From: Methylocystis silviterrae
GTDB taxonomy: Bacteria > Pseudomonadota > Alphaproteobacteria > Rhizobiales > Beijerinckiaceae
DNA: 64,000 nt
Assembly: GCF_013350005.1 (NCBI RefSeq)
Contig: NZ_JABVWW010000002.1
Coordinates: 124,001-188,000, forward strand
Direction: 5' to 3'
Shown: in pieces, positions 7,046 through 24,453 of the stretch
Position numbering within the stretch: the stretch's first letter is position 1
How the letters are laid out: the number at the start of each line of letters is the position of its first letter
Program-made: the position numbers and the translations under genes
Notes under the pieces: model-generated
Database searches by the model: none
What the model was told of the DNA's origin: nothing
Seen by the model: only the letters and a program-made list of their open reading frames with translations

Positions 7046-8083
7046 TCAGTCCGGCAGCGACCGTGTACGCGATGTTCCGGAGAACATCGTGGCGATCCAC
7101 TGAGTTGACGGAAACTGCGCGCAGAGGGTGAGAAAAGCGATCGCCAGCGGGACCCCGATGAAGGCTCCTGGAAGGCCCCACAGAAAAGTCCACAGAACGA
7201 CCGCAAATGTCACGACGGATGGTGAAATCGCCAACGCTGAACCCGAAAGCAGCGGCTCGAGATAGCTGCCAATGACAAATTGCATCACAGCGAGAGTCAC
7301 GAACACGAACATCGCGGTTTGCCAGGATTCGAATTGAACAAGAGCAAACAACGCCGGTAAAACGGTAACGATTAACGCCCCGATATACGGTAGATAGTTA
7401 AGCGCGAAGGCCAGGATTCCCCAGGCGGCCGCAAGCTCAAGTCCCAGGAGCAGAGCAAAACCGCCGACCGCGACGCCCGTAACGACGCTCGCAATTGTGC
7501 GCACAATCATATATTTGCGGAATTTCCGCGCGATCGACTGGCTGGCCATCAACAAACGACGACTTGTTTCTTGGTCTTTCAACGTCGCGATATGATTTTG
7601 AAAATCTTCTGTTTCGACAAGGCCCATGACCAAGAAGATGAAGACCAGAAGAGAGAAGCCAACAAGAACGTTGATCCTTGTCGCGACTGCTCGCAGAAAG
7701 CCTATCAACCAAGCAGCATCGAAATTTTCCGTCACATGCGACATCACGAATATGTCGTGATCCTCCAGCCACTTCGTGGAGTTGCGGAATGTCGTTCCAA
7801 TCTTCACGAGATTGTGACGTATCCAGTCCGCGATTTCGCCGGCGCCCCAGACGATCATCGACGTCAGCGCGACAACGACGCCAAGCGTCACGACAATGGT
7901 GATCAGGAGCGCCAAAGCTTTTGGCATTCTGGACGCGAGGGCTTTCTGCAGCGGCCATATCAGCGCGAAGATGAATATCGCAAAGATCACCGGCTCGAAC
8001 ACAACCTGAGCCATGGAAGACGCTGCAAGCACAACGAACGCTATGACGAGCCCGGCCATAATGCTCACGACTTTGTTGTCCAT
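7046..8083 (-). CDS. AI-2E family transporter (TqsA/PerM-like)
   Basis: A 345-aa polytopic inner-membrane protein with about 7-8 hydrophobic helices. Two lie at the N-terminus (MAGLVIAFVVLAASS; PVIFAIFIFALIWPL), there is a central soluble stretch (about 85-150), and a C-terminal block contains the family signature LPYIGALIVTVLPALFALV followed by VIGSYLEPLLSGSALAISP. The family exports small molecules or acts in osmoadaptation, and the substrate here is unknown. The start is taken as the ATG at 8083 (MDNKVVSIM). An ATG 7 codons upstream also exists. It faces murA convergently and is separated from pbpC by about 135 bp. Confidence 0.9.
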   Translation of the reverse strand: MDNKVVSIMAGLVIAFVVLAASSMAQVVFEPVIFAIFIFALIWPLQKALASRMPKALALLITIVVTLGVVVALTSMIVWGAGEIADWIRHNLVKIGTTFRNSTKWLEDHDIFVMSHVTENFDAAWLIGFLRAVATRINVLVGFSLLVFIFLVMGLVETEDFQNHIATLKDQETSRRLLMASQSIARKFRKYMIVRTIASVVTGVAVGGFALLLGLELAAAWGILAFALNYLPYIGALIVTVLPALFALVQFESWQTAMFVFVTLAVMQFVIGSYLEPLLSGSALAISPSVVTFAVVLWTFLWGLPGAFIGVPLAIAFLTLCAQFPSTQWIATMFSGTSRTRSLPD

Positions 8084-8218
8084 GGCGCACCGGTCAATGT
8101 TCAATCGCTAATTGGCGATCAATCTAGCGCTGCAACTGAGAACCATCTACTTCGATTCACGCATTTGGCGATTTTGCGCCTGCATGGGTTGAAACGACGG
8201 TTTCCCGGATATGTCCGT

Positions 8219-10528
8219 TCACTCGATCACAACCTTCACCGTGCGCGACGCGACCGGGGCGAGCGCCAGCCGCGCCTGAATGCGATGTCGGCCGGGCGTC
8301 ATCGGCCAGAACACCGTCTCGTTCGCCTGCGCCGTGGCGAAAGGCTCGCCGTCGATCGTCCAGACGATCTGCGCATCTGCGCCTGTTGGCGCGAGCTTCA
8401 ATGCGAGTCGGTTGAAGCGCTCCGGCTGCTCCGGGTTTCGCCAGATATGCGTGTTGTGCTCCGGCGTCGCGATCACGAGCGGCGTGGCGACTGTCGCCTG
8501 AGAGTCCGGCGCGGACGCCATGCTCTCGCCTTGAGCAGGACTCCTCTCATAGGTCTCGGCCTCTCGCCGTTCCGCCGGCTTCACCCATTCGCGCAACGTC
8601 TGCGCGCAGTCGGCGCCGCCGTCGGCGCGACAGAGATCGATGGCGATGCGTCCCGGCGGCGGCGCAAAAACTTCCGGCGCGATGTCTCCGGGCTTGGCGT
8701 CATGCAGCTTCGCCAGCACGGCGTGGGCGATCCGCGCCGCCGATGAAACGCCCGTCATCGAACGCATTGGGCCAGCATCGCCGCGCCCGAGCCACACGCC
8801 GACGATGAATTTATGCGAAAAGGCGATCGTCCAGGCGTCGCGATAGGCTTGCGACGTGCCGGTCTTCACGGCGACCGCGAACGGATATTCGAGCGCCCCG
8901 TAGCGTGGAAAAGAGGGAAGCCGCGCCTGCGGGTCGGAGAGCATCGAGGCGATCAGCCGCGCGCTGTCGACTGACAATACGCGCCGCGCCGGACGTCGCG
9001 CGTCGTCGCGGGTGAACGCAAGTTCGCGCATGATCCCGTCGTCGGCGAGCGCGGCATAGGCGCGCATCACGTCTTCAAGCCGCGCCGGCAAGGCGCCGAT
9101 CGCCATCGAAATTCCGAAACTCTCCGCCGGCGTTTCGAGATCGTGCAGGCCGAGGTCGCGAAGGAAGTTGAAATTCGCCTCAAGCCCGACGCGCCGCAGC
9201 AGATTTGTCGCCGGCACGTTGCGCGAATTGGCGAGCGCCTGACGCGGCGTCAGCGGTCCAAGATAGAGCCCGTCGGCGTTCGATACGCCCGAGGCGCCTT
9301 CGGGAATGTCGTTTAAGAGGTCTGTGGTCTTGAGAACGCCGCGCTCGAACGCCAGCGCATAGATAAAGGGTTTTAGCGTCGAGCCGGGCGAACGCCGCAC
9401 GCGAGTGAAATCGAATGCGCCTGCCTGCGGATCATTATAATCCGATGAGCCGACGTCGGCGATGACGGCGTTGGTTCCTCGCTCAATGACCATCACCGCG
9501 ACCTGCCGTGCGCCGCGGCGGCGGAAGTTCGAAAGATAGCGGCGGGCGAGCCGCAGCACGTCCTGTTCGACCGCCAAATCGATCGTCGCATTGATGCGTC
9601 GGTCGCCCTCCGCGGCGGGCCGCGCCAAGCCCTCGCGCGCGAGCGTTTCATAGCGCAGCGCCAGATGCAGCGTCTCGGGACGACGCTTGGCGTCGAGCGG
9701 CCGCATATGATCGAGCTCGGCGCGCGCCAGCGCCGCCTGCGCGGCGTCGAGCGCGCCTTCCTTTTCGAGCCGGGCGATCGCATGCCGCGCGCGCGCCGTC
9801 GCCAGTGTCAGACCGCTCTCGCGAGAGATGTTCATCCGGCCCGGCGATTGCGGAATGGCGGCGAGCAGCGCCGCCTGCGCCCAGGAGAGGTCTTCGACAG
9901 GCTTGTCGAAATAAAAGCGCGCGGCATGGGCGACGCCATGGCCGTTCAATCCGTAAGGGGCGAGGCGCAGATAATGCGCCAGCGTCGCCTCATGTCCATT
10001 GCGCGCGACGATGGCGAGCGCCGTCGCCGCCTGCATCAGCTTTTCGGCGAATGAGCGCGGCCGCTCGCCTTGCATGCGCGCGACCTGCATCGCGATCGTC
10101 GAGGCGCCTTCGCGTCTGCCGCGCGTCGTCAGATTGCGCCATGCGGCGCGCAGCAGCGCGCGGACGTCAACGCCGGGATGATCATAAAAGCGGCGGTCTT
10201 CGAGAGCGAGCGTCGCGCGCGCCATGCGCTGCGGAATTGAGGCGAGCGGCCAATAGCCGTAATCGACGCGCGGGGTTTTGGTCGCAGGATCGCGCGTCTT
10301 CTCGCCGATCTGCGTGAGAAAGGCGCCGTTGCGATCGTAGACGATGGCGCTGGCGCGCGGAGAAATAAGCGCGGCGCGCGACAGCGCCTCATGCGAGAGC
10401 CAGGCGGCTCCTGCGATGAACGCTGCAGTGAGAGCGAGAAAAATTCCGCGCGCGAACCCTCTCCCGCACGCGGGAGAGGGTGGCCCCGCGAAGCGGGGTC
10501 GGGTGAGGGTGAACCAAGCGACCCTCAT
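8219..10528 (-). CDS. pbpC: Penicillin-binding protein 1C
   Basis: A bifunctional class A-type peptidoglycan synthase of 769 aa. After a membrane anchor (about 28-48) comes a GT51 transglycosylase domain with EDRRFYDHPGVD (about 107-118) and GASTIAMQVAR. The transpeptidase domain has SPGSTLKPF (SxxK, Ser about 381), NSRN (about 431) and KTGTS (about 553). The C-terminal BiPBP_C beta domain (from about 690) identifies the PBP1C class. Immediately upstream is the alpha-2-macroglobulin gene, the classic partner of PBP1C. The only usable start, ATG 10528, lies inside a palindromic repeat, so the first roughly 24 residues are repeat-derived. Confidence 0.95.
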   Translation of the reverse strand: MRVAWFTLTRPRFAGPPSPACGRGFARGIFLALTAAFIAGAAWLSHEALSRAALISPRASAIVYDRNGAFLTQIGEKTRDPATKTPRVDYGYWPLASIPQRMARATLALEDRRFYDHPGVDVRALLRAAWRNLTTRGRREGASTIAMQVARMQGERPRSFAEKLMQAATALAIVARNGHEATLAHYLRLAPYGLNGHGVAHAARFYFDKPVEDLSWAQAALLAAIPQSPGRMNISRESGLTLATARARHAIARLEKEGALDAAQAALARAELDHMRPLDAKRRPETLHLALRYETLAREGLARPAAEGDRRINATIDLAVEQDVLRLARRYLSNFRRRGARQVAVMVIERGTNAVIADVGSSDYNDPQAGAFDFTRVRRSPGSTLKPFIYALAFERGVLKTTDLLNDIPEGASGVSNADGLYLGPLTPRQALANSRNVPATNLLRRVGLEANFNFLRDLGLHDLETPAESFGISMAIGALPARLEDVMRAYAALADDGIMRELAFTRDDARRPARRVLSVDSARLIASMLSDPQARLPSFPRYGALEYPFAVAVKTGTSQAYRDAWTIAFSHKFIVGVWLGRGDAGPMRSMTGVSSAARIAHAVLAKLHDAKPGDIAPEVFAPPPGRIAIDLCRADGGADCAQTLREWVKPAERREAETYERSPAQGESMASAPDSQATVATPLVIATPEHNTHIWRNPEQPERFNRLALKLAPTGADAQIVWTIDGEPFATAQANETVFWPMTPGRHRIQARLALAPVASRTVKVVIE

Positions 10529-10602: not shown

Positions 10603-13600
10603 TTACTTCCCAATCTCCACCCGCGCGCCGGCGCTCGTCGCCCGAAGACCTTTCTTGTACATCGCTTCGACAAGCGCCGGCGGCTGCGTATAGGCGCCCG
10701 CCGTTTGCGCGCGCAGGCGAAAGGCGAAGCGATAGGTTCCCTTCGGCAGCGAATCGTAGGCGTAGAACACCCGGTCGTCGCCATAAGAGACCCAGCTCGG
10801 CGGCAGCGTCGGCGCCATTGAGGGCTGCGCTTCGGCAGGCGCCGTGGCGAGATTGGGATTGAGCGGCTCGAAGCCCGCGGCGAGCGGAATCGAAATGGCG
10901 ACATGGGTGCGATCCTCGGGATTGACCACTTCCGCCGTCTCTTCGACGAGGTCGCCCTGCTTCACCTGCAAAACGCCGTCGCGAACGTCGATCTTTTCCG
11001 GCGCCTTGCCGCTTTCGATGCGCCAGCCCTGCCGCGTGATCGTAAAGCCGTCGCTCGTCGGTTGCGCCTTTGCGCCAGGCTCGACCGGCATGTAGCTGGT
11101 CTCGATCATCGCGACGAGCGGCGCGTTGGAGCCGTTGACGATCTTCAGCGGCGCGTCGCTGCTGGAAACATGGCGGACGACCGGCGTATTGGCGTCGAGC
11201 GTCAGCGCGCGATCCTGTCCGCCATCATTGAAGGTCACGCCGATCGATGCGGTGGGCCGCCGCCACCCCTCGGCCAGCGCTTCGATGGCGGCGGCGTCGG
11301 CGTTGGTCGTTCCCCAGCCGTCGCCTTCGCCAAGCCGCAGCAGCGCATCGCGTAGCGCATTGGCGCGCGGATCGCCCGAGGCGGAAAGCGCCGCGGCGCG
11401 CACCATTTCGGCGACGCTGCGCGTTTCGGAAGGCAGAATGATCGGCGAGGCGCTCTCCGCCGCCTGTCCGGCATAGACCTGCACGCCATTGCGGCTGGCG
11501 AATTTCACGCGGCTCCACATCGTATCGATCAGCGCGGCGAGCGCGCGCTGATCGACATTGGGCAGAAGCGCGGCGGCGGAGGCCATCTGCGCGACGCTGA
11601 TATTGGGCAGGAAGTCGGCGCGGCGCGAAAATTCCGCGACATAGGAATCGTCGAGCTTGCCGCCTTCCGCCAGCGCCGAAAGCGCCTCGACTCGTTCGCG
11701 CAATTCGTCGCCCGACAGCAGTCGCGGATAATCGGAGCGCAATGACAATTTGAGGATATTGGCGAGACGATCCAAAAGGGTCTTGTCGATCGGCTCTCCG
11801 GCGCGCTCCGCCCGCGCGAGGAAATCGTAAGACCAGGCGGTCAGCGAGACCGTGCCGCGCGAACGCGGCCAGAAGGCGACGAGCCCGTCGGCGTCGATCG
11901 ATTGGTCGATGATCTGCTCCGTTGATTTGACGTTGGCGGAGACGCGATCCTCGAGCCCCGCCGCCGCGAGAATTGGCCCGAAGCTCTTCAGCGCCAGCCC
12001 GCCGCGCGCGAGCGACAGCCGTTGCTCGGTGCAGCCATAGGGATATTCGACGAGCGCATTCAATCCGGCGACGAGCCTTACGAGCGAGGGGTCGGCGGCG
12101 ACGATCGCTTCGCGCGAGAAACTTCCCGGTCGCGCCTGCTCGCCAGCAGGAGCAAGCGTCTTCGTTTCGCCGGGCGCGATCTCAACCAATTCGAAGCGGC
12201 GCGTCGCCTCGCGATCCTCTTTCACCGGCAGAGCGATTTCGACCGCGTCTTTCGTGCGGTCGGCGTCGCGCTCGATGCGGAAGCCGAGCGTCGCTTCGCC
12301 GGCGAGTTGGGCCGGCGCTGCCGCGCGCAGATCGATGCGCACAGGCTTGTTCTGCGTCCATTCGATTTTGCGGCTCGTCTCGCCCGAGAGCGTCAGCGCC
12401 GGCGCCGTGATCGACGCCTTGCCGGCGCCGCCGGGTCCTTCGACGATCCGCGCGACAAGGCCGATGTCGAAGGAATCGCCTGGCCGAATGAAGCGTGGCA
12501 GCGCCGGCTGCGCGACGAGCGCCTGACGGATCAGCAATTCGCCGCCGGCCGCGCCGAAGCGATCCGGCCCGCTGACCGCCTTGGCGCGCAGCTTGAACAC
12601 GGTCAGCGTATCGGGAAGCTGCACCTTGATTTTGGCGACGCCGTCGGGGCCGATCTTCACGCTCGGCAGATAGATCGGCACGGGCGTGAAATTCTTGCGC
12701 ACGGAAATATTGTTCTCAGCGCCCCATTCCTGCAGTTCGTCGCCGTCGCCGCCGGCGATCTCTTCGAGCGGAATGACGCCAAACGCCATGTTGCGCGTGT
12801 CCCGCGCCGCCATTTTGGTTTCGCGCTCGACGATGAAGTCGGGCAACGGATCGAGCGGGCGTTCCTTTGCAAGCGACAGCACCGCCTGATCGACCATCCA
12901 GAAGGTCGCTTCGCCGGCGAGTGGCTTGCCGGCGTCGTCGGAAAGGCGTAGCGCGACCTCGATCGCGTCGCCGGGGCGCGCCTTGGCCGGATGTTCGATC
13001 TTCACATTGACGATGTTCTTGACCGGCGTCACCTCGATCCATTTCGTCGCTGCGATGGTGACAGGCTTGCCTTGGTCGAAACTCGCCGTCGGCTGCGGCG
13101 GCGCATCCTTCAGCCGTCCCCGCATGATCAGAAAATGCACGGCGAGCTTTGGCGTCTGCTCTTTTCTGACCGGCAGAGCATAGCGGCCGAAGCCATTGGC
13201 GATGTCGACGAACTCATAATCATAGACGCCGCTCGGCTGTTCGACGATGGCGAGCGCGCGCGCATTCTGGAATGGCGACTGGATAATCAGCGTCGCCGTT
13301 TCGCCCGGCGCATATTTGTCCTTGTCGGTCGTGATTGTCGCGGATTCGGCTGGCGGCCGCGCGAAAGTGACGGGCGTATCGCCGCCGACGAAGAAGTCGA
13401 CGCTCACCTGCTGACGGCGCTTGAGCCTGTCATAGGCCTCAAGCTGCACGACATAGACGCCGGCGTCGCGCGTCGCCAATTCGAGTTTCTGCGCCTCCTT
13501 GGCGCTCGTCACCTTGCGTTCGATCAGAACGTCGTCCTGCGTCTGCGTGACATATTTCGCCGCGCCCTGCGCGAAGTCGGAGGCCTGCAGCGTCGAAATC

Positions 13601-16464
13601 CAGTTGCGTTTGATGAGCCGCAGCGTCATCTCGAGACCGACAACCGCGTCGCCCTTGCCGTCAATGGCGATGAACTCCGGCGTCACGGCGCCGGGACGCT
13701 CCACATAGCGCGGCGTCTTCACGCCGAGCACGAAAGGCGGCAGCGCGATGACGTTCTGCACATTGCGCACTTCTATGCCGTCGTCGCCGGTCACCGTCGC
13801 TTCGATGGAGTAGCGGCGCGGCTGCGCCGTCGGCTCGATCGCGGTGTCGAAGGTCATGCGGGCGGCGCCGCCGGCGTCGGTACGCTGATCGCGCTCCAGC
13901 ACAGCCGTCGATTTGAACTTGCCGTCGCCGGAGAAGCGCGCGTCGGTCGAAAAGAGGAAGCCTTCGCGCCCCGGCGGCGTGAAGACATGCGGAAATTGCG
14001 CGGCCCGCCATTTGATGGGGCGCTCCGCCGCAAGTCCGCCAGCGAAATAACGGGCAAGGAGGTCGACGTCGAAGGTCCCGTCGAGCGCAACGGTCTGCGG
14101 CGCATTGAGCACGACCTCAAACGTCGGCAGTCGATAGGCTTCTTTCTTGAACGTGAACTGGCCGCAGGAAATGTCCTGAGTGGGCTCGGCCGCTTCGCTC
14201 TCTCCCTCGGCGGCTTCTTCCGTTTCGGTCTTCTGCGCTTCCGGCTTCTTCGCCTTTTTCGGCGTATCCGGCTCGAACCGCGCCGAATAGTCGCCGGTCG
14301 CCTGAGTTTGCGCGTCGAATTTGTGATAGAAGCCGCCGCTCGCGTCGAGCTTCACCGGAATGCGCCACTCCTGATTGGCGGGCCCTGTCACGACAAGCGT
14401 TCCGCCGGTCTTCGTCAGGCTCAGCGCCCCGCCGCGATAGCTGCGCACGAAGCCCTTGATGTGCGCGAATTCTTCCGGCCGATAGATCGGCCGCTCGGAG
14501 AAGAGATGGCAGAGCGTGCGCGGCTTTTCGGCGCGCGGCTGGTCAGCCTCGCTTGTCCAGGCGAGCCATTCCGACTCCGGCTTCGACCAGATTTCCCGCG
14601 AATATTCCGAGGGCGCGCTGTTGGGGTCGATGACGAGCGTATCGAGCCCCTTGTTCACGACGACGCGGCGCGCTTCGCCGGCGCCGCGCTTGTCGGGCGT
14701 CCACGAAAAGAAGCCCGAAGCGTCGGTGGTTCCGCTCGCGAGCGTGACGAATTTTTCGTCCTTGATCCCTTCGACGCGGATTTGAGCGCCGCTCAGGGGC
14801 TGCGTCGTCGACAGCGAAGTGACGGTGAAGCGCACCCGCGTCGGCTCTTCGATGGCGGACAGCGAGAGATCGGTGATCTGCACGCGCAGCCAGCGGCGCT
14901 TGTCGTCATCGACCGCGCGCAGGCCGACGAGATAGGTCCCCGGTTGGTCGCGGCCGCTGACTTTGGCGAAATCTTCTTTGAGGTCGACGCCGAATTTCGC
15001 GTCGGGGCCATTGCGGCGGATCGGCAGATCGACGAGTCGCGACACCGCGGGAGATCCGAGCGATTTGATGCGCTGCTTGATCGCCTCAGCCTCGATGTTT
15101 GCGGTCTCGCTCCACGACTTTGGCTCGTTGCCGGGCAGGGGCGGCGCGTCGGAATCGCTCGTTTCGACGCCATGCGCCGGGAAGGGAAAGAAGTCGCGCG
15201 ACAGCGGATCGATGGCGTGGATGCGGATGTCGGCGCGGTCATAGCCGCGGCCGCGCAGCGGCAGAAGCTGCGGACCGAGCCGTTCGGCGACGCCATAGCC
15301 CGCGTCCCATTGCAGCGCCGGCGCGTCGCGGGTGAAGGCGAAGCGCTGCGAGAAGGCGCTCGCCAGCGCGCGTCCTTGCGAGTCTTTCAGCGCGCCTTGC
15401 GCGATGGAGAGTTCGTAAATCTGGTCCGACAGGAATTTCGCGACCATGCGCACTCGCCTGCCGTCGGTTTCGACGGCAAGATCGTCGACGGGCGGCGTGA
15501 TGCGCAGCGCCTCGCGCGCACGCAGAATGTCGATCGTCTCGGGCGTCGCGTTGAAAGAGAGCGTAAGCTGGCGCTTGCTCGCCGGCGCATAGGGGATGGC
15601 GGCGGCTTCGCCTTCCTCGTCGCCGCTCTCCGGGGACATGAGATAGGACGCGCAACGCAACACGTTTTCGCCGCGGTCGTCGCTCCAGCCACGGCCGCAG
15701 CTCGCCTCAGTCGCCGCGAAGGGCGGCGCGGTGCGCAGCCGCAATTCATAGGTCTGGTCGTCGAGTCCGGCTTCGTCGGAAAGGCGAAGCCGCAGGATCG
15801 CGACGCGGCCGTCGGCGATCCGTTCACGGAAACGGATGACGTAGGTCTGTTCCTCGGCGCGCTCGCCCCGCTCCAGCGCGCGGATCTCATAGGCCGAAGC
15901 GCTGAGCATTTGTCCGCCCTGCGGCGAGACGCCGGGAGAGGGACGAATTTCGATCGACAGCAGCCGCGCCAGCGCGGCGACGTCGACCGGCTCGGCGAAG
16001 GTGAGGGCGATCTGCGTCAGTTCGAGCTGCGGATCGGCGCCTTCGGCGGGATTGGTGGAACGCGGCGTCGGCAGCAGCGCGACGAGTCTGGTCTCCGCCG
16101 CGCCGAGTTTCACGCTCACGCGCGACAGCGGCTTCCAGGCGTCGGCGGGACGAAATTGCAGCGCGCGCGGACCGAGCCAGCGCCATTCGCCGGCAGGCTG
16201 CGGGGTCATCGTCACATATTTTTGCGGCGTGTCTTCCGCTCCGCCGGCCTTCGGCCCCGTGTCGCTAGAGAAGAAGACCGTCACCGGATCATAAGCGCGC
16301 AAAAACCTATCCGGCGCGACGCGCGCGCCGTCGGCGCGTTGCGCGCGATCGAACACGGGCGGGGCCTCGGCGCGCAGCGGCGCCGCTGCGCCAAGAAACG
16401 CGCCAAGAAATGCGCAAAGAGAGAGAAGCAGAAGTTTTTTCATCGCCGCGCCTTTCGCAATCAT
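10603..16464 (-). CDS. Bacterial alpha-2-macroglobulin family protein (thioester type)
   Basis: A 1,953-aa secreted protein with a cleavable-type signal peptide (KKLLLLSLCAFLGAFLGAAA then LRAEA). It has the serial macroglobulin beta-domains of bacterial A2Ms and keeps the reactive CxEQ motif (YPYGCTEQRLSLA, about residue 1470), expected to form an internal thioester that traps proteases. An acidic Lys/Glu-rich insertion lies near residues 730-765. The ATG at 16464 overlaps the stop of the upstream giant gene as ATGA. ATG 16443 is an alternative start. pbpC follows 74 bp downstream, the usual periplasmic A2M/PBP1C defence pairing. No lipobox Cys follows the signal peptide, so it should be soluble or otherwise held. 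Confidence 0.93.
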   Translation of the reverse strand: MIAKGAAMKKLLLLSLCAFLGAFLGAAAPLRAEAPPVFDRAQRADGARVAPDRFLRAYDPVTVFFSSDTGPKAGGAEDTPQKYVTMTPQPAGEWRWLGPRALQFRPADAWKPLSRVSVKLGAAETRLVALLPTPRSTNPAEGADPQLELTQIALTFAEPVDVAALARLLSIEIRPSPGVSPQGGQMLSASAYEIRALERGERAEEQTYVIRFRERIADGRVAILRLRLSDEAGLDDQTYELRLRTAPPFAATEASCGRGWSDDRGENVLRCASYLMSPESGDEEGEAAAIPYAPASKRQLTLSFNATPETIDILRAREALRITPPVDDLAVETDGRRVRMVAKFLSDQIYELSIAQGALKDSQGRALASAFSQRFAFTRDAPALQWDAGYGVAERLGPQLLPLRGRGYDRADIRIHAIDPLSRDFFPFPAHGVETSDSDAPPLPGNEPKSWSETANIEAEAIKQRIKSLGSPAVSRLVDLPIRRNGPDAKFGVDLKEDFAKVSGRDQPGTYLVGLRAVDDDKRRWLRVQITDLSLSAIEEPTRVRFTVTSLSTTQPLSGAQIRVEGIKDEKFVTLASGTTDASGFFSWTPDKRGAGEARRVVVNKGLDTLVIDPNSAPSEYSREIWSKPESEWLAWTSEADQPRAEKPRTLCHLFSERPIYRPEEFAHIKGFVRSYRGGALSLTKTGGTLVVTGPANQEWRIPVKLDASGGFYHKFDAQTQATGDYSARFEPDTPKKAKKPEAQKTETEEAAEGESEAAEPTQDISCGQFTFKKEAYRLPTFEVVLNAPQTVALDGTFDVDLLARYFAGGLAAERPIKWRAAQFPHVFTPPGREGFLFSTDARFSGDGKFKSTAVLERDQRTDAGGAARMTFDTAIEPTAQPRRYSIEATVTGDDGIEVRNVQNVIALPPFVLGVKTPRYVERPGAVTPEFIAIDGKGDAVVGLEMTLRLIKRNWISTLQASDFAQGAAKYVTQTQDDVLIERKVTSAKEAQKLELATRDAGVYVVQLEAYDRLKRRQQVSVDFFVGGDTPVTFARPPAESATITTDKDKYAPGETATLIIQSPFQNARALAIVEQPSGVYDYEFVDIANGFGRYALPVRKEQTPKLAVHFLIMRGRLKDAPPQPTASFDQGKPVTIAATKWIEVTPVKNIVNVKIEHPAKARPGDAIEVALRLSDDAGKPLAGEATFWMVDQAVLSLAKERPLDPLPDFIVERETKMAARDTRNMAFGVIPLEEIAGGDGDELQEWGAENNISVRKNFTPVPIYLPSVKIGPDGVAKIKVQLPDTLTVFKLRAKAVSGPDRFGAAGGELLIRQALVAQPALPRFIRPGDSFDIGLVARIVEGPGGAGKASITAPALTLSGETSRKIEWTQNKPVRIDLRAAAPAQLAGEATLGFRIERDADRTKDAVEIALPVKEDREATRRFELVEIAPGETKTLAPAGEQARPGSFSREAIVAADPSLVRLVAGLNALVEYPYGCTEQRLSLARGGLALKSFGPILAAAGLEDRVSANVKSTEQIIDQSIDADGLVAFWPRSRGTVSLTAWSYDFLARAERAGEPIDKTLLDRLANILKLSLRSDYPRLLSGDELRERVEALSALAEGGKLDDSYVAEFSRRADFLPNISVAQMASAAALLPNVDQRALAALIDTMWSRVKFASRNGVQVYAGQAAESASPIILPSETRSVAEMVRAAALSASGDPRANALRDALLRLGEGDGWGTTNADAAAIEALAEGWRRPTASIGVTFNDGGQDRALTLDANTPVVRHVSSSDAPLKIVNGSNAPLVAMIETSYMPVEPGAKAQPTSDGFTITRQGWRIESGKAPEKIDVRDGVLQVKQGDLVEETAEVVNPEDRTHVAISIPLAAGFEPLNPNLATAPAEAQPSMAPTLPPSWVSYGDDRVFYAYDSLPKGTYRFAFRLRAQTAGAYTQPPALVEAMYKKGLRATSAGARVEIGK

Positions 16465-19400
16465 TGCGCCTTGCTTTTCTTCATGCCGGCCTTGTCGAGC
16501 AGCTCGGCGACGATCTCCGCCGGCGGCGCGTTCACAGGCGGCGACAGCCCGACGATCGCGACGCGGACCGTCGTCGCCGGCGCGTCGGCGGGCGTTCGCG
16601 CCTCGATAAAATAGCGGCCGGGCGAAAGCGTCATCGTCTGCGCGACGCCTTCACCGAGCGTCTTGCCTTGCGCATCCATCAGCCGCGCACTGATGCGGTC
16701 GGGTTCCGCGCGCAGGCCGAGGCCGATGTTGCGCGCGTCCTTCACCTCGAAGCTGAAGAGCGCGCTTGCGCCGGGCGAAACCGCCACCGCGTCATTCACG
16801 CCTTCATGCGCCTCAGTAACGGGCTGCGTCGAAATATCGAGCATGCCGGACAGCGCGCCGTCATAAGGCGCGTAAATGTCGAGCGTCGCTTCGCCCGGCG
16901 TCATGTAGCGATGAAGATCGACGCCATTGGCGAAAGCGAGCGTCTCCCGCCTGCCATTTTGCGTGAAACCGACGATCGCCGGCGCGCCGCCCGTCGCTCT
17001 CAACAGCGCGGGCTTATCGCTCTTGATCGAAAAGCGCATCGCCGCGCCCTCCAGCGCGGCGCGCTGCGGTAGATTGAGCGCGCGCGCCGTGGCCGCAGGC
17101 CAGGGCGAAACGCCGGCGCGCTCGATCCATAAGGCGACAAGCCCGGGTCCATGTTTGATGATCGCTTCGCCCGCGCCGTCCAGCGCAATGTTCTCGCCGC
17201 GCGTGATCCGGCCGCTGTTCGCAATGACGGTCGCCTGCGCGCCGCTGACGATCAGCCTGTCATTCTTCTGCGCGTCGAGCGGCTGCGAAATCTGTCCGGC
17301 CGCGGGGAAGAACCGCGTGAATGCGCGCGTTGCGTCGAGCCGTCTGTTCTCGCCAGTCTCGCGCGCGATGCGCGCCGGCAGCGGCGCTTGCGTCAGATTG
17401 ACGAGAAGCACGCGCGATTTGACGCCGTGCAGAATGCGCGACGTGGCGGCGCCATCGCTAAAGACGACGCGCGGCTGCGCAAAAGCGGCGAGCCCTCCGG
17501 CGAGGTCGAGCGCGAGCGGCCCTGCGGCGTCATCCATGTCGACAGGCTGCGCGCTCATCGGCGCGATGATCCCCGAAAACAGCGCGCCGCCTTTCACCGC
17601 CGGCAGTGTCTCGACGTCGATCGCGCTCAGCGCGACGCGCATCGCCGCGCTTCCTTCACCGTTCCAGAGCGCAAGCGGCGTATCGCCAGCGAGCGCCAGC
17701 GCCGCGCCCTTTGCCACGCCGACGCCGTGTCCGCCGTCGAGCGCCGGCTGCGCGAAGGCGGACCGGGCGAGCCACAGCCGCAACTTGCCGGCGGCTGGCG
17801 CGAGCGGAACGAGATGAGCGCGCTCGCCTTCGCCGATGTCGAGCGAAATCTCGGCGCCCTTCCAGTCGAAAGCGGCGACCCCGGCCCGGGAGGCGCAGTC
17901 GCCGCGCCCCATCAGCCACAGTTCCTGCGCTTGCGGCGCGAGCGGTCCGGAGCGCGCCGCGCGCAATAATGTCCCCGCCATCGAGCCGGCGGCGATATTC
18001 TCTTGCGTCGCCAGCGTCACGAGGGCCGCGTCGGGTGTTGCAACCTTGGCGACGCAGACTCCTGCGACGCCGTCGACCGGATCAAGGGCGACTTCGCCAA
18101 GCCTGCGCGCGCGCCGTTCGACCGCGCGGGCGGCGAGCGTGATCGGCGTGTCTTCACCGCCGATCGCCCAGACCACCGCGCGCAGTTCGCCGTCGTTGGC
18201 CGCTGGCCATGCCGCGACGGGCGAGCGTCCGCGCTCGACGCCGATCGCGCGCCATTGGCCGTTGGGCTCGCGCCGCTCGATTGAGATGGCGACGTCGCCT
18301 TCGGAGCGCGCCGCGATCAGCGCGAGACTCCCGGCGGGCGCCGGCGCGAGGGAAAGAACATGCGCGCCGGCGCCGTTCAGCGTCTTCTCGCCCGAGAACG
18401 TCAGCGCGCCGTCATTCTTCTCAACGGGCAGCGCCAGGCGAAGCTCGACGCCGCTGAGAGGCGCGTCCTCGCTTTCCGCGGCTTCTCCTTCATTGGAAAC
18501 GTCTTCGGTTTCCTCGCTGGGCGCTTCTTCAACCTCCGCAGGGGCGCGCGGCTCAGCGCCAAGCTTTTCGAGTTCCAGCCGGTAATTTCCCGCTGGCAGG
18601 CGTCGCGACAACGCGACGTTCCAATCATCGGCGCGCGGCTGCAGGCGCTCGATCACATCGCCCCCGCCGTCTTTCAGCACGCCGATCGTTTCGATGTCCC
18701 CGAAGCTCGAAAGGTCGACGACGCTGTCCTTCGCCAGCGAAAAATCGACGCGAGTCGGAGGTTCGACGACGCGCCGCGCATCGGGCTGCAACTCTTTCGA
18801 GTCGAGCGAAACTTCGTAGTCGAGACGGTCGTCATGGGCGAGGCTTCGCGCCTCGATCCGATATTCGCCGGCGGTCAGTTTCGACTTGAACGGCCTGCCC
18901 GCAGCGACTTTGCCGACGCTGTCCTTCTCGCCTTTGAAGATTTCGCCAATCATGCCTTCGCCGATCGAAAGATCGATCTTTGCGTCGCCATAGAGCGCGA
19001 AGCGCCAGACATCGGGCGTGCGCGGCGCATCGCGCGCCTGCGGTTCGCGCCATTGCAGCCTCTGCGCTTTGCCGAAGGGCAGGGGATGCGGACCATGCCC
19101 TTCCAGCGCCTTCGCGGCGACGACTGGCGTCAGTCGGGCCGCCATGCGCGCTTCGACGTCTCTCGGCAGGACGACCAGCCGATAGACGCCTTTCTCGAAC
19201 CGCCGCGTGACTCGCTGCATTTCGCCCGGCGCCGCGAGCGGCCAGCCGTCGGCGTCCTCCAATCTCGCGCGCCATTTCTGCTTCAGGCCGAGAAGTTCGA
19301 TACGATATTCGCCGTAGCGGGTGATCTCGATCGGCACGATCGCGCCCTTGCCGGAATCGAGCGTCGCCCGCGCGATTCCCGCATCGACAAGTTTCGCCGT

Positions 19401-21563
19401 CGGCGCGAGAGTCGCAGGCGAAACGGCAAGGCCCAAATGGCCGGAAGAGTCCTTCGCGGTGACGGCCGCGCGATAGCCGCCGGCGCGCAGAAATGCCGTC
19501 ACCAGCGCATTGTCGCCGGGTCCATTCGCGTCGCCTTCGCCAAGCCGCGGCGAAACAGTCGCGCCGACGCGCAGCGCCGTCTTCATGCGCCCGAGCGTTT
19601 CGACCCGGTAGAGCCCGCCTTGCGGCACGTCGAAGCGCATGCGTTTCGTTTCGTCGCGGCCAAGATCAAAAAAAGCCGGACGCGCGAGCGTGGCGGAAAG
19701 CGCCGTTGGCGCGGGCTTGCCTGCTTCATCCACCTTTGCCGGCGTCGGTTCGGGAACGAAGATGAGTCCCAGCGCGCGCGGTTTTTCCGACGCCGCGATC
19801 TTTATTGTCGCGAGACGCTGCGCGTTCTCTTCCTTTTGATCGGCGAGGGTCAGCGCGACATCGGCGTTATGCCAGTCGCGTGCAATCGCCTTGCCGGTCT
19901 TGGGAAGCCGCACCGGCAACGTGACGTCCTTGCCTGCATCCTGCCAGAGCGCCAATGGCGCCTTGTCGAGTTCAATGGGCAGCGCGACGACGCGCGGCCC
20001 GGTTAGGAGTTGCGGCGCGACATTCGTCAGGATGAGATAGGAGCCGTCCCGTTCGAGAGTCTGCGTCCCGAAGGCAATTGTGGGGCGCGAAGGCGCCGCC
20101 GCAGGCGCTGATACAGAGAGTCCGGGCGGGCCGAGCGTCACGTCGATCACGCCGCCGGAATCGCCCTTCGGCTCGAGCTTGAGAAAATAATAGCCTGCCT
20201 GGAGATCGTAGCGCGCCGGGTTCTTTCCGTCCGCGCGGGGCGCCAGCGCGCCAAGCGCCGGTTCGATCGAAGCGTCGACCTTGACGCCTTTAGCATCGAT
20301 CGCGACGAGTCCGTCGCGCGTCGCCTCGAAGAGAATCGACGTCGGCCCGAACAGGTTGAATTTTCCGCGCCACGCTTTTCCGGCGCCGATGCGCGGCGCG
20401 TCCGAGGCGATCACCCGCGCCTTGCCATCCTTCTCTATGCGCGCGAAGAGCGCCGTGGCAGGGGCTTCGTCGCCGCCGTCGCCAGCAAGATCGACGCCGA
20501 CAAGATGCGGTCCAGACGCTTCGAATGTTTCGCGGTCCGACTGACGCAGACCGCGCAGCGTGAACGCCTGACCCTCGTAGCCGGAGACTTCAAGATGCGC
20601 GTTCGTCTTGCCGTCGGACGCGAGCCGAAGGTTCGCGGAGGGCGTGCGGCTGTTCTTCGAGATCGTCGCGATCTCTTTCGATGCGTTGCGCCGCGCTTCA
20701 AGCCGCGCCGGCGTCGTCTCCGCGAGGTCAAGACGGAAAGCGTCATAGCTTGCCGGCGCGTCAAAGCGCGCGGCGCCAAAGGGGCCGATCACGCCCTCGG
20801 CGACGCCCGCCGCGAGCAGCGCCGGCTGTTCGAGCCGCAGCAAGAAGGGCTGCGCCGCATCGCCTTGCGCCCAGACCAGCTTCTCGCCGCCATAGGCGGT
20901 GACGACATAGCGCCCGGGCTCCAGCGCGCCTTCAACACGCAGCCGATTCATCGCGCGGCCCGGCTTTGTTTCGACCGTCTCCTGCTCGAAGGCGAGATCG
21001 ACGAGTTCGCCGTCGCTACGCCAGACGCGCAGGTCGCTGAGCGCCCGGCCGATCGCTTCAAGGCTCACGCGACCCTCGGCGCCGACGTCGAAGGAATAGG
21101 AGCGTTGCTGCAGATCGCCGAGTTCGCCGCTTTGGATGCGCCCTGGCGCGAGCGTCGGCTTTGACGGGCTGGCTTCGACGAACGCCTGCGCGGAGAGCGC
21201 GGTCTTGCCGCTCGCGCCTTTCACGCCGAAAACCCGTATCTTGTAGACGCCCTTATCGAGCAACGCGTCGATGCGTCCGTCGCGCAGGCCGGGCGCGCCG
21301 CTTGAGTCAAGCGGGCCGGCGATCATGTCGACGAGTTCGATGCGCGCGCCGGAGGGACTTTTTGCACGAATCGCATAGCGGCCTGGCGCCGGCACGGCGA
21401 TGAGGCTCGCGCCGTCGCGATCCGCGGCCAACTCGCCTGGCGTAATGCTGATCGAGCTTGGTTTGGCTCTTGTTTCGGCGATTGCGTTCTGTGTGGCGCG
21501 CCACAACGGCTGCGCAAAATACGCCGCAAAGGCGGCGACAAGAGAAAACGCGATCCGCCGCAT
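16461..21563 (-). CDS. Giant secreted or anchored beta-rich repeat protein
   Basis: About 1,700 aa from ATG 21563 (MRRIAFSLVAAFAAYFAQPL, a signal peptide or anchor). The frame is open 42 codons further upstream but that part is low-complexity. I recognise no named family across most of it. A motif [L/F/P]-x-x-G-x-Y-x-[hydrophobic] recurs at least ten times (APGRYAIRA, DKGVYKIRV, EPGRYVVTA, QAGYYFLKL, RYGEYRIEL, EKGVYRLVV, TAGEYRIEA, PAGNYRLEL, SPGRYFIEA), suggesting serial PPC-like beta-sandwiches. An acidic Glu/Ser linker lies around residue 1050. It overlaps the A2M gene by 4 bp (ATGA) and so belongs to the same operon as A2M and pbpC. The function is unknown. A periplasmic partner of A2M/PBP1C is inference. 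Confidence 0.85.
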   Translation of the reverse strand: MRRIAFSLVAAFAAYFAQPLWRATQNAIAETRAKPSSISITPGELAADRDGASLIAVPAPGRYAIRAKSPSGARIELVDMIAGPLDSSGAPGLRDGRIDALLDKGVYKIRVFGVKGASGKTALSAQAFVEASPSKPTLAPGRIQSGELGDLQQRSYSFDVGAEGRVSLEAIGRALSDLRVWRSDGELVDLAFEQETVETKPGRAMNRLRVEGALEPGRYVVTAYGGEKLVWAQGDAAQPFLLRLEQPALLAAGVAEGVIGPFGAARFDAPASYDAFRLDLAETTPARLEARRNASKEIATISKNSRTPSANLRLASDGKTNAHLEVSGYEGQAFTLRGLRQSDRETFEASGPHLVGVDLAGDGGDEAPATALFARIEKDGKARVIASDAPRIGAGKAWRGKFNLFGPTSILFEATRDGLVAIDAKGVKVDASIEPALGALAPRADGKNPARYDLQAGYYFLKLEPKGDSGGVIDVTLGPPGLSVSAPAAAPSRPTIAFGTQTLERDGSYLILTNVAPQLLTGPRVVALPIELDKAPLALWQDAGKDVTLPVRLPKTGKAIARDWHNADVALTLADQKEENAQRLATIKIAASEKPRALGLIFVPEPTPAKVDEAGKPAPTALSATLARPAFFDLGRDETKRMRFDVPQGGLYRVETLGRMKTALRVGATVSPRLGEGDANGPGDNALVTAFLRAGGYRAAVTAKDSSGHLGLAVSPATLAPTAKLVDAGIARATLDSGKGAIVPIEITRYGEYRIELLGLKQKWRARLEDADGWPLAAPGEMQRVTRRFEKGVYRLVVLPRDVEARMAARLTPVVAAKALEGHGPHPLPFGKAQRLQWREPQARDAPRTPDVWRFALYGDAKIDLSIGEGMIGEIFKGEKDSVGKVAAGRPFKSKLTAGEYRIEARSLAHDDRLDYEVSLDSKELQPDARRVVEPPTRVDFSLAKDSVVDLSSFGDIETIGVLKDGGGDVIERLQPRADDWNVALSRRLPAGNYRLELEKLGAEPRAPAEVEEAPSEETEDVSNEGEAAESEDAPLSGVELRLALPVEKNDGALTFSGEKTLNGAGAHVLSLAPAPAGSLALIAARSEGDVAISIERREPNGQWRAIGVERGRSPVAAWPAANDGELRAVVWAIGGEDTPITLAARAVERRARRLGEVALDPVDGVAGVCVAKVATPDAALVTLATQENIAAGSMAGTLLRAARSGPLAPQAQELWLMGRGDCASRAGVAAFDWKGAEISLDIGEGERAHLVPLAPAAGKLRLWLARSAFAQPALDGGHGVGVAKGAALALAGDTPLALWNGEGSAAMRVALSAIDVETLPAVKGGALFSGIIAPMSAQPVDMDDAAGPLALDLAGGLAAFAQPRVVFSDGAATSRILHGVKSRVLLVNLTQAPLPARIARETGENRRLDATRAFTRFFPAAGQISQPLDAQKNDRLIVSGAQATVIANSGRITRGENIALDGAGEAIIKHGPGLVALWIERAGVSPWPAATARALNLPQRAALEGAAMRFSIKSDKPALLRATGGAPAIVGFTQNGRRETLAFANGVDLHRYMTPGEATLDIYAPYDGALSGMLDISTQPVTEAHEGVNDAVAVSPGASALFSFEVKDARNIGLGLRAEPDRISARLMDAQGKTLGEGVAQTMTLSPGRYFIEARTPADAPATTVRVAIVGLSPPVNAPPAEIVAELLDKAGMKKSKAQ

Positions 21564-21806
21564 GAGCGCACCGTAAGCCGGCGGCGGACTTGCCGGAAAG
21601 GCCGCGCCGCCGCTGGAGGCAAGCATAGGCCGCGCGCCGCGCCTGAGTCGAGAGCCACGCGCCTCTCGTTGCGCCGACGATTCGTCCATGCCGCTGTCCC
21701 ATGCGCTTGTTTGGCCGACGCCATTTGGAGCCGGCGGGAATATCTTTTAGGCTAGGTTCTGCGTCTGGGGATTGCGCGAGCGCACATCAAAACCAGGGAA
21801 GTCGGC

Positions 21807-22200: not shown

Positions 22201-24453
22201 TCACAGGCTATCGCCGGCGCGGGCCAGTTCGACTTGTGGCGACCGCGTTCCCGTATCCTCGAACTTCGCCCGATAGACGACGAAATTCTCCATCACCCGC
22301 TGCACGTAATTGCGCGTTTCGGTGATCGGAATCCGCTCGACCCAGTCGATCGGATCGACATTGGGCTTGCGTGGATCGCCATAGGCGTCGATCCATTGCT
22401 TCACCCGACCGCCGCCAGCGTTGTAGGCGGCGAAGGTGAGGAGATAGGCGCCCCGATATTCGCCCAGCAGAATGCCGAGGTGCGCCGCGCCGAGCTGGGC
22501 GTTGAAGGGCGGGTCGCTCAGCATCCGCGACATGTCGAAGCTGATGCCGCGCATATAGGCGGTGTGCCGCGCCGTCGAGGCGATCATCTGCATCAGGCCC
22601 ATGGCGCCGGCGGAGGAGACGGCCTTGGGATCGAAGGCGCTTTCCTGGCGTGCGACGGCGAAGACCATCGAACGGGACGCGGAGCCTGGAAGCGCGTTGA
22701 AATCCGGAACGCCATAGGCGGGGAAGGCGACGTCATCGAGCGCGATTCCCCTATAGGAGGCGGCCTTGCCGTAAATGAGCGAGAGTTTCGCGTCGCCCTG
22801 GCGCGCAATGACTTCTCCGAGCGCTGCGACCTGCGCCTCGTCCTGCAAGTATTTTGCGCTGTCGAGCGCAAGCGGCGCCGCGACCTGCTTCTCGCCCACG
22901 GCGAACAGAAGCTCCGCAACGCGAACCGCTTCGGCTCGGCTGTCGTCGGAGGCGGCTGTCGGTGGCCGGCGAAGCGGGCGCTCGTCGGCGCCGAGGCGGG
23001 AATTGGCGAGCTGCCCGTAGAACGTCGTCGAATGCGTGGCCGCCTGGAGATAGAAATTGCGCGCTTTGGAGTCATCCTCGGCGTGCGCGGATTCCGCCGC
23101 GCGTCCCAGCCAATAATACGCGCGAGACTTTTGCAGCGGAGTCTCGGCGACCTGTGCGAGCCGCGTGAAATGGCGCTCGGCCTTGATCGGGTCGTTCAAG
23201 AACCGCAGAGCAATCCAGCCGGCGTTGAATTCGGCGTCGACCTTGTTGCTGGTCTTGGCGGCGGCATGATCCGCGCAAAGCTTGTATGCGGTCTGCGGAT
23301 CTCCCTGGTCGAGAAGCTTGCGGGCGACGATGCGCCGCTCCTCCCACCAGGCGTCGCCGTCAACGACCTGCTCGATGTCGCGCGGCGCATTGCGCAGCAG
23401 CGCGCCCGCTTCAGCGAATTTCTTGTCGTTGCGCAGCTTGTGCACGCGTCCGTAAAGCAGTCCGGGATCGTTCTGCACAGACGCCGGCAAAGCGGCCGCC
23501 AGCTTTTCGACGCCGGAAATGCGCGCGCGGGCGAGCAGCGCGACGTCCTTGCCGGCGAGCTCGGCGCTGCGCAAAGCGAGCGTATTCTTTCCGGCATAGA
23601 GCAGACGAGCGGCGCGGAACTTGTGATCGGCCGGCGTCAGAAACTCGCCGAGCTCCTTGTTGAAGATCGTATCGAACCCCTGTCCGATATCGTCGCTGCG
23701 CCAAGCGTCGCGCGCCAGCGCCGCCGCCGATTCGAAATCGCCTTCGCGTGCGATCGCCCGCGCCAGGGCATATTTGCCAAAGCCGGTGAGCGGCTTGTTG
23801 TCCGCGAACCAGGCCAGCACGCTCTTGTCGGCGTGGCGCTCGGCGACGAGCGCCTGCTCGGCGCGACGGCGCAACCAGTCGCCGGCGGGCCAGTCCGGGT
23901 GATCCGCAAGGAATTCGGCGATCCGCCTGAACCCGGCTTCGCGGGGATGCAGCCGAAGGCCAGTCCATCGCGCGGCGTCGGCAAGCGGCGTACGGAGCCG
24001 CGACGCGGCCTCGTCGCCTTGAGCGAAATCTCCGGACCTGTATGCAGCGATCGCCTGAGTGAAAACCTCCGCGTCGTCTCCTAGCAGGGCGGCGGCGGGA
24101 TCAGCGGCCACCTCGCCGTTGAGCCAGTCCTGCGCAGGGGCATAGGCGACGATCGGCGAGAGCACGCCTTCATCGGCGGCAAAGAGCGAATTTTCGAGAG
24201 GATGCGCCGCCTCGTCGTCAGCGTGTTTGCGGTCGACGAACTCGTGCACAGTCTCCTGCAACGTGCCGACCCGCGAGCGCCAAGCGCCGAGACTGAAAGG
24301 AATAGAAGGCGTCCAGCGCCAGGAGGCCTTGCGCTTCGCCTCTCCGTCGCCAAGACGGTCAAGGCCGGTGAAAGCTGGCGCGGCGATCACGAGGGCGGCG
24401 ATGCCGACCGTCAGTTTGAACCGCGTCGCGACACGTCGAGGCAACATCATCAC
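22201..24453 (-). CDS. Soluble lytic murein transglycosylase
   Basis: A 750-aa periplasmic enzyme that cleaves glycan strands to 1,6-anhydromuropeptides. It starts with a signal peptide/anchor (TRFKLTVGIAALVIAAPAF) and continues with a long helical TPR-like superhelix (about 100-560). It ends in an SLT domain with the catalytic Glu about residue 599 in ARQESAFDPKAVSSAGAMGL, followed by NAQLGAAHLGILL and AYNAGGGRVKQW. This architecture matches Slt70. Three consecutive start codons (GTG-ATG-ATG) occur at 24453-24445. It converges on the SH3 protein gene and diverges from dapA. No amidase or recycling genes are adjacent. Confidence 0.93.
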   Translation of the reverse strand: MMMLPRRVATRFKLTVGIAALVIAAPAFTGLDRLGDGEAKRKASWRWTPSIPFSLGAWRSRVGTLQETVHEFVDRKHADDEAAHPLENSLFAADEGVLSPIVAYAPAQDWLNGEVAADPAAALLGDDAEVFTQAIAAYRSGDFAQGDEAASRLRTPLADAARWTGLRLHPREAGFRRIAEFLADHPDWPAGDWLRRRAEQALVAERHADKSVLAWFADNKPLTGFGKYALARAIAREGDFESAAALARDAWRSDDIGQGFDTIFNKELGEFLTPADHKFRAARLLYAGKNTLALRSAELAGKDVALLARARISGVEKLAAALPASVQNDPGLLYGRVHKLRNDKKFAEAGALLRNAPRDIEQVVDGDAWWEERRIVARKLLDQGDPQTAYKLCADHAAAKTSNKVDAEFNAGWIALRFLNDPIKAERHFTRLAQVAETPLQKSRAYYWLGRAAESAHAEDDSKARNFYLQAATHSTTFYGQLANSRLGADERPLRRPPTAASDDSRAEAVRVAELLFAVGEKQVAAPLALDSAKYLQDEAQVAALGEVIARQGDAKLSLIYGKAASYRGIALDDVAFPAYGVPDFNALPGSASRSMVFAVARQESAFDPKAVSSAGAMGLMQMIASTARHTAYMRGISFDMSRMLSDPPFNAQLGAAHLGILLGEYRGAYLLTFAAYNAGGGRVKQWIDAYGDPRKPNVDPIDWVERIPITETRNYVQRVMENFVVYRAKFEDTGTRSPQVELARAGDSL

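Follow-up and report, generated by a model that had tools for sequence, protein, structure and literature searches.

The window analysed here is a stretch of 64,000 nucleotides from the methanotroph Methylocystis silviterrae. Three genes lie head to tail on its minus strand: a gene encoding a very large protein (here denoted the giant), a gene encoding a Type I alpha-2-macroglobulin (A2M) and, adjoining the latter, pbpC (Table 1). The first-pass annotation had placed A2M and pbpC beside the giant, and the domains confirm both genes; pbpC lies beyond the positions 10603-21563 given there. In the A2M, the Pfam families A2M_BRD, MG2, A2M and bMG10 score above their cut-offs and bMG3 0.7 bit below; the best NCBIfam match of the PBP1C is TIGR02073 (PBP_1c), at 459.3 bits, below the curated cut-off of 494.2. 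A CxEQ thioester motif was found in all 11 A2Ms of named relatives that were read, and also in L128 (GCTEQ) and L131 (LCTEQ). Opposite the A2M gene runs an ORF of 1207 aa (12991-16614, plus strand), in all likelihood a shadow frame produced by GC-rich coding DNA.

Table 1. Features of the locus, in window coordinates; residue numbers refer to the encoded protein.
Feature	Coordinates	Strand	Remarks
pbpC, PBP1C-type peptidoglycan synthase	8219..10528	-	Transgly, Transpeptidase, BiPBP_C
Type I alpha-2-macroglobulin gene	10603..16464	-	likelier start 16443
A2M thioester motif GCTEQ, residues 1477-1481	12022..12036	-	CxEQ type
Giant PPC-array protein gene	16461..21563	-	1700 codons + stop
Putative export signal, residues 1-29	21477..21563	-	by eye; AIA precedes the cleavage site
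N-terminal array D1-D9, residues 36-1000	18564..21458	-	segment borders set by eye from the models
Acidic low-complexity loop, residues 1004-1037	18453..18554	-	predicted disordered, pLDDT mostly <50; varies among relatives
D10-D15, residues 1046-1590	16794..18428	-	beta segments; no detected similarity to the repeats
D16, residues 1590-1676	16536..16796	-	last PPC-like repeat
C-terminal tail, residues 1676-1700	16464..16538	-	possible docking peptide, inferred
SLT lytic transglycosylase gene	22201-24453		outside the trio

The reading frame of the giant is open upstream to a first ATG at 21689 (16461-21689, minus strand; 1742 aa). Most relatives read share the start MRRIAFSL at 21563, which yields 1700 aa, so that the gene of about 1,700 codons proposed at first is borne out and its end coordinate is this conserved start. 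The N-terminus (MRRIAFSLVAAFAAYFAQPLW...NAIA-ET) looks by eye like the export signal that had been claimed, and clearer signals are present in other family members, e.g. L053 and L157; the giant is probably an exported protein. The giant and A2M frames do overlap by ATGA, as was noted initially and as the ORF coordinates bear out. In L042, though, a stop stands directly after the overlap (ATGACTTGA), and an ATG about 21 nt beyond it (window 16443, MKKLLLL) is conserved among close relatives. The ATGA is therefore probably not the working start of the A2M gene.

Both large proteins carry an acidic stretch, at about residues 1004-1037 of the giant and 731-765 of the A2M. Its presence in both had been correctly reported; the further idea that it forms a shared processing or interaction site was rejected, since the stretches vary in length, are missing from some relatives, and are uncoupled in L053, whose giant has one and whose A2M has none. 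By eye, the N-terminus of the window A2M shows no lipobox. Loss of a lipobox as the reason for a separate anchor was also discarded: a simple lipobox pattern occurs in only 2 of the 33 listed A2Ms from loci lacking the giant and does not discriminate between the groups.

At least ten repeats of a G-x-Y-x-hydrophobic motif had been claimed over residues 60 to 1650 of the giant. We counted 12 exact G.Y.[VILMAF] motifs between residues 61 and 1649, against a mean of 1.0 and a maximum of 5 in 2000 shuffled sequences. With F allowed at the third place the count rose to 14 (shuffled mean 2.9), a number reached in 0 of 2000 shuffles; the looser motif is weak in the A2M (7 versus 3.4, reached in 93 of 2000). 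The giant matches no Pfam family at E<=1, and a single NCBIfam model matches it, below the model's cut-off. PF04151 (PPC) gave no match at E<=1 in the six giant family members scanned with Pfam. The statement that the giant has no recognised domain thus holds for library scans; it fails once profiles are compared with profiles.

Residues 36-932 and 816-1700 were modelled separately with AlphaFold2, from 18 aligned relatives in each case. Both models are almost wholly beta, with mean pLDDT of 85.3 and 85.4, respectively; values below 50 are confined to the acidic loop, a short loop in the N-terminal half and short end stretches. We divided the models by eye into 16 segments (D1-D16). Profile comparison joins eight of these roughly 16 segments (D1, D2, D4, D6, D7, D8, D9 and D16), the best partner of each scoring at least 70%, whereas D3, D5 and D10-D15 reach at most 26% with anything in that comparison. 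Against a set of seven PPC sequences, D9 scored a probability of 98%, D16 90%, D7 84% and D8 70%; the figure for D9 is partly circular, the set having come from proteins found through the D9 region. Pfam assigns PPC above cut-off to four of the five members of this set that were scanned. A Foldseek search with either half of the giant retrieved 5iku, the tandem collagen-binding domains of ColG, which we take to be of PPC type, at a probability of 1.00. CUB and other jelly-roll chains are also among the matches; TM-scores are low since whole arrays were compared. Further beta-rich chains (haemagglutinin, Cry, phage tail) have low TM-scores and give no functional hint. PPC typically forms a small terminal domain in secreted enzymes. 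Judged by profiles and predicted models, the repeats of the giant are related to PPC (PF04151) domains, and the models match tandem PPC-type domains. In G840 the giant has an open frame of 1337 aa (L153 765-4775) and is without model positions 1006-1513, roughly D10-D14, which points to the PPC part as the possible core of the protein. A similar stretch is missing from L058, there together with a frame change. The C-terminal tail holds the sole helix of at least four residues in either model, and its pattern PP-x-E...L...G is conserved out to Candidatus Eisenbacteria, which makes the tail the best candidate for a docking peptide.

Since the giant resembles the A2M in size and is likewise all-beta, it could be a degenerate A2M paralogue, and C3, C5 and A2M chains do appear in the Foldseek lists, some of them at the top by E-value. 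These complement and A2M chains align at an rmsd of about 33-40 over chain-long alignments; Pfam finds no A2M domain in the giant, and the profile probability is 0.2% with the A2Ms of giant-bearing loci and 3.4% with all A2Ms. Paralogy is largely refuted by these results and we give it hardly any credence.

A contig-collection scan with two peptide patterns only, which makes the resulting distribution a lower bound, yielded 29 named loci. They span Methylocystis, Methylosinus, other Methylocystaceae MAGs, Inquilinus, Acidisphaera, an Acetobacteraceae MAG and a Candidatus Eisenbacteria MAG, whose giant (L060) is 31% identical to that of the window. The A2M gene stands behind the giant on the same strand in 27 of the 29, some of these having one or other gene divided between two frames; the remaining two contigs (L047, L059) stop within the giant. 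A pbpC follows in 22, and the contig ends before any pbpC in five (L038, L039, L047, L058 and L059). Two loci, L048 (Methylosinus sp. Sm6, with about 0.7 kb between the giant and the A2M match) and L056 (Acidisphaera), have no pbpC within 3.5-4.2 kb behind the A2M. Because these two keep giant and A2M together without a nearby pbpC, the A2M is the tighter partner: by gene order across the loci, the giant is tied more tightly to A2M than to pbpC. The giant is also the least conserved of the three proteins, identities to the window for giant, A2M and PBP1C being 39, 55 and 51% in the Inquilinus-type L053 and 31, 41 and 41% in the Eisenbacteria locus. The record of L053 is titled Mycobacterium sp. 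KBS0706; its trio groups with Inquilinus and the record is probably mislabelled.

The scan listed no Rhizobium. The trio of giant, A2M and PBP1C was later found on 7 of 72,556 plasmid records, all from Rhizobium, and its flanks differ in L157, L158 and L161; phage records gave no match. On one of these plasmids (Rhizobium sp. C104, L159 11470-25448) giant, A2M and PBP1C are broken into several frames, unlike on the other annotated Rhizobium plasmids. Two of the plasmids, L158 and L159, share flanks and have a gene for a SigJ-type sigma factor divergent from, and shortly upstream of, the trio (L158 9438-10307, L159 9501-10370). Six of the seven plasmid records give a plant or a nodule as their source. 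Together with the PPC/collagen-binding and CUB-like fold matches, these sources are what would be expected were the giant an adhesin or matrix protein, a rod outside the cell, and the operon a surface-colonisation cassette. Against this, the partner of the giant is a thioester A2M and not a secretion system, and the Pfam scan showed neither an outer-membrane anchor nor an autotransporter or sorting domain in it; we regard such a function as improbable.

We looked for the giant apart from A2M and pbpC and, over the 29 loci and the seven plasmid records, never found it without A2M where the contig continued. The gene order is kept across two phyla, on plasmids and within different flanks, and the giant is paired with one lineage of A2M, as set out below. 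A neighbour with no functional tie, held in place by slow operon decay, is largely refuted by this distribution and we consider it very unlikely. On the evidence of sequence, the giant is a conserved partner of the A2M rather than a chance neighbour. Such genomic linkage is evidence of joint inheritance, as distinct from contact.

Among 61 relatives searched, 29 have the giant, all of them within the 37 that belong to the genus of the window. In this genus a close A2M is present in 30 of 37 genomes and the giant in 29; the thirtieth A2M (G011, a genome 59% complete) is a fragment at a contig start. Three members that are 92-99% complete (G003, G007 and G033) have neither giant nor close A2M. 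Sampling more widely, we found the giant in 2 of 297 genomes of the order, both of the window's genus, in 4 of 385 of the class (G000, G376, G457, G494) and in 4 of 398 of the phylum (G000, G009, G748, G840); absence in the class sample rests on a six-frame search in which scoring was limited to the two best candidates in each genome. The six-frame search also revealed the giant of L131, which sits behind a longer shadow ORF. Nine short class-level matches and one phylum-level match within model positions 922-1073 were not counted as giants; four of five such matches scanned have a PPC domain above cut-off. In the order of G840 the giant occurs in 2 of 48 genomes, in that of G494 in 2 of 9, and this patchy distribution suggests a unit that is moved horizontally or often lost.

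A2M as such is far commoner: bMG10 at E<=0.001 marks it in 94 of the 385 class genomes, including the four with the giant. Compared with the other 93, the window A2M has three close relatives (43-49% identity; best piece 1078-1800 bits), and these lie in the same three genomes that have the giant. Of the remaining 90 genomes, 45 score 135 bits or less and 45 have no match at E<=0.001. G748 and G840, searched because they bear the giant, have a close A2M as well (39-42%; best pieces 882 and 917 bits). An A2M of the trio lineage without a giant was not seen in the genomes searched, except for the contig-end fragment of G011.

Trees of A2M (15 trio and 34 other rows) and of PBP1C (13 trio and 31 other rows) each part trio from non-trio by a single branch with an SH-aLRT of 100. 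Eisenbacteria falls on the trio side of both, and L118 and L127, from other genera of the window's family, on the other side. The trees were built quickly, under LG+G4 and without bootstrap, and cover a selection of loci: 39 regions were fetched from the 94 class A2M genomes, plus one of G840. From 37 non-trio loci, rows whose labelled ORF was missing or too short were dropped (A2M: L119, L143, L146; PBP1C: L117, L123, L138, L140, L146, L151); from 15 trio loci chosen, we dropped L021 for A2M and L021, L056 and L154 for PBP1C. On these trees, the neighbours of the giant fall into a single A2M clade and a single PBP1C clade, each separate from the sampled sequences that have no giant beside them. 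Most sampled A2M/PBP1C pairs occur without a giant. Candidates for a large partner of non-trio A2Ms were read by eye and rejected: the large ORF of L113 resembles an LRR-type protein, that of L133 a probable shadow ORF, and that of L145 a TPR-like gene that does not adjoin the A2M.

The flanks of the trio show little that is shared. The SLT gene is labelled beside it in 10 of the 29 named loci, each of these ten being of Methylocystis type, and is not labelled there in L041, L044, L050 or other genera; as it adjoins the trio only in Methylocystis-type loci, we place it outside the unit. Further neighbours scanned were ordinary ones (a DHDPS-family gene, an AI-2E-family transporter and an EPSP synthase gene). 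No shared stress promoter motif was found upstream of 26 loci: an EcfG pattern occurs in 1 of 26 (shuffled mean 0.8), a stricter EcfG pattern, sigma-E and sigma-32 in none, and a sigma-54 pattern in 1 of 26 upstream regions against 0.04 expected from shuffling. Consensus promoters and terminators in the window are in no clear excess (1 versus 1.8 and 20 versus 16.2, sd 3.9).

Some giants carry an N-terminal LprI domain (PF07007). It scores above the Pfam cut-off in the L055 giant and in seven scanned N-termini, from Rhizobium (four), G494, G376 and Acidisphaera, which had been preselected because LprI was visible by eye; when the Acidisphaera giant is scanned whole, LprI falls below the cut-off (19.4 versus 22). 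Pfam finds no LprI in the window giant. On a tree of 23 giants, several of whose rows are long or partial, eight are labelled as bearing LprI (L158 by eye only) and 15 lack it, a distribution that needs five changes, four of them forced by supported branches. Among non-trio A2Ms, that of L136 has an N-terminal match to LprI whose score equals the cut-off (22.0; 7825-8724, minus strand), and those of L121 and L135 have PAN-type matches instead. The domain, present in five lineages, ties the giant by sequence to the cell wall and its metabolism; the link with lysozyme is weak. The LprI protein ScwA has no role in lysozyme resistance and affects the lytic transglycosylase MltD (PMC7933661), which renders the name 'lysozyme inhibitor' doubtful.

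The LprI fusion in five lineages raises an alternative in which the giant is itself a sensor or inhibitor that binds wall hydrolases or lysozyme-like enzymes at several sites, and the co-secreted A2M protects it from proteolysis with no need for contact. The low conservation of the giant within the trio is as expected of a surface that meets variable targets. Yet LprI is missing from the 15 giants counted above, and LprI proteins need not inhibit lysozyme, to judge from ScwA (PMC7933661). We consider this alternative rather unlikely, if the most serious of those weighed.

The reading we prefer is that the giant is a third, obligate-looking member of a distinct A2M/PBP1C cassette, a periplasmic scaffold or adaptor rather than an enzyme, to which we assign a probability of roughly 50%. 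The first-pass annotation had also proposed a third component; its constant company with A2M wherever the contig continued and the separate A2M and PBP1C lineages sustain that proposal. What the structure search returned, generic jelly-roll repeats of PPC/CUB type, is compatible with a scaffold or binding rod and does not fix the role; the bait and the anchor suggested in the annotation are indistinguishable on these data. From sequence, models and analogy taken together, a scaffold or adaptor for wall protection is most likely, the precedent being MagA, MagB and MagF for the Type II A2M MagD.

In such a scaffold mechanism the giant would be secreted to the periplasm as a rod of PPC-like domains that binds polymer or protein ligands, either the wall or incoming wall-attacking enzymes, and that also binds A2M, perhaps via the conserved C-terminal tail. 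The A2M would trap proteases at the rod and, where LprI is present, the giant would bind muramidase-type attackers; PBP1C would repair the wall at the same place, the giant thus bringing trap and repair enzyme together. A wider and more tentative proposal, possible but held with less confidence than the scaffold role, is a three-part envelope immunity module in which the PPC giant would couple a dedicated lineage of thioester A2M, acting as a covalent protease trap, to LprI muramidase binding and PBP1C repair, and which would spread as a unit on plasmids and between phyla, guarding the wall against degradation by rivals, predators or hosts.

In the sources consulted, the function of thioester A2M/PBP1C pairs in bacteria is still a proposal that leans on gene neighbourhood. 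A third gene tied more tightly than pbpC to one A2M lineage, and in some lineages bearing the wall-related LprI domain, offers a direct handle on it. The cassette also gives context to a family whose RefSeq names are 'hypothetical protein' and, in one case, 'lysozyme inhibitor LprI family protein'. A description of the trio was not found in titles and abstract openings of the literature on bacterial A2M with PBP1C or pbpC, Methylocystis, PPC, LprI, Rhizobium and the RefSeq product names; PMC10734482 (Gallionellaceae) and the founding 2004 survey of bacterial A2Ms may mention it.

The nearest known systems are the Type I A2Ms, E. coli YfhM (ECAM) and Salmonella Sa-A2M, which combine a CxEQ thioester with PBP1C as operon partner (PMC5764988, PMC3328433, PMC4498604). 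The window A2M is like them in its CxEQ thioester and adjoining PBP1C gene, and the trio differs from the pair by the extra giant gene upstream; ECAM has a lipobox, whereas none is seen by eye in the window A2M. The trio clades stand apart from the 34 A2M and 31 PBP1C alphaproteobacterial rows without a giant, E. coli lying outside the trees. The Type II A2M MagD of P. aeruginosa is encoded in the six-gene mag operon; MagA, MagB and MagF from this operon bind MagD, whose stability in the periplasm depends on MagB (PMC5764988). The mag operon resembles the trio in supplying an A2M with operon-encoded partner proteins; MagD has no thioester and six genes are involved, whereas the trio A2M has a thioester and there are three genes. 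With the LprI proteins of M. tuberculosis (LprI) and Salmonella (ScwA), the giants of Rhizobium, Acidisphaera, L055, G494 and G376 share a domain, in their case fused to a giant PPC array; the window copy is without it. With PPC proteins (PF04151) such as ColG, the giant shares the repeat fold and the G-x-Y beta-hairpin, and it differs from them in having many copies, none of which reaches the Pfam cut-off, and no known enzyme domain. The trio is real, conserved and, as far as searched, undescribed, and it adds a new component to systems of the Type I A2M/PBP1C kind.
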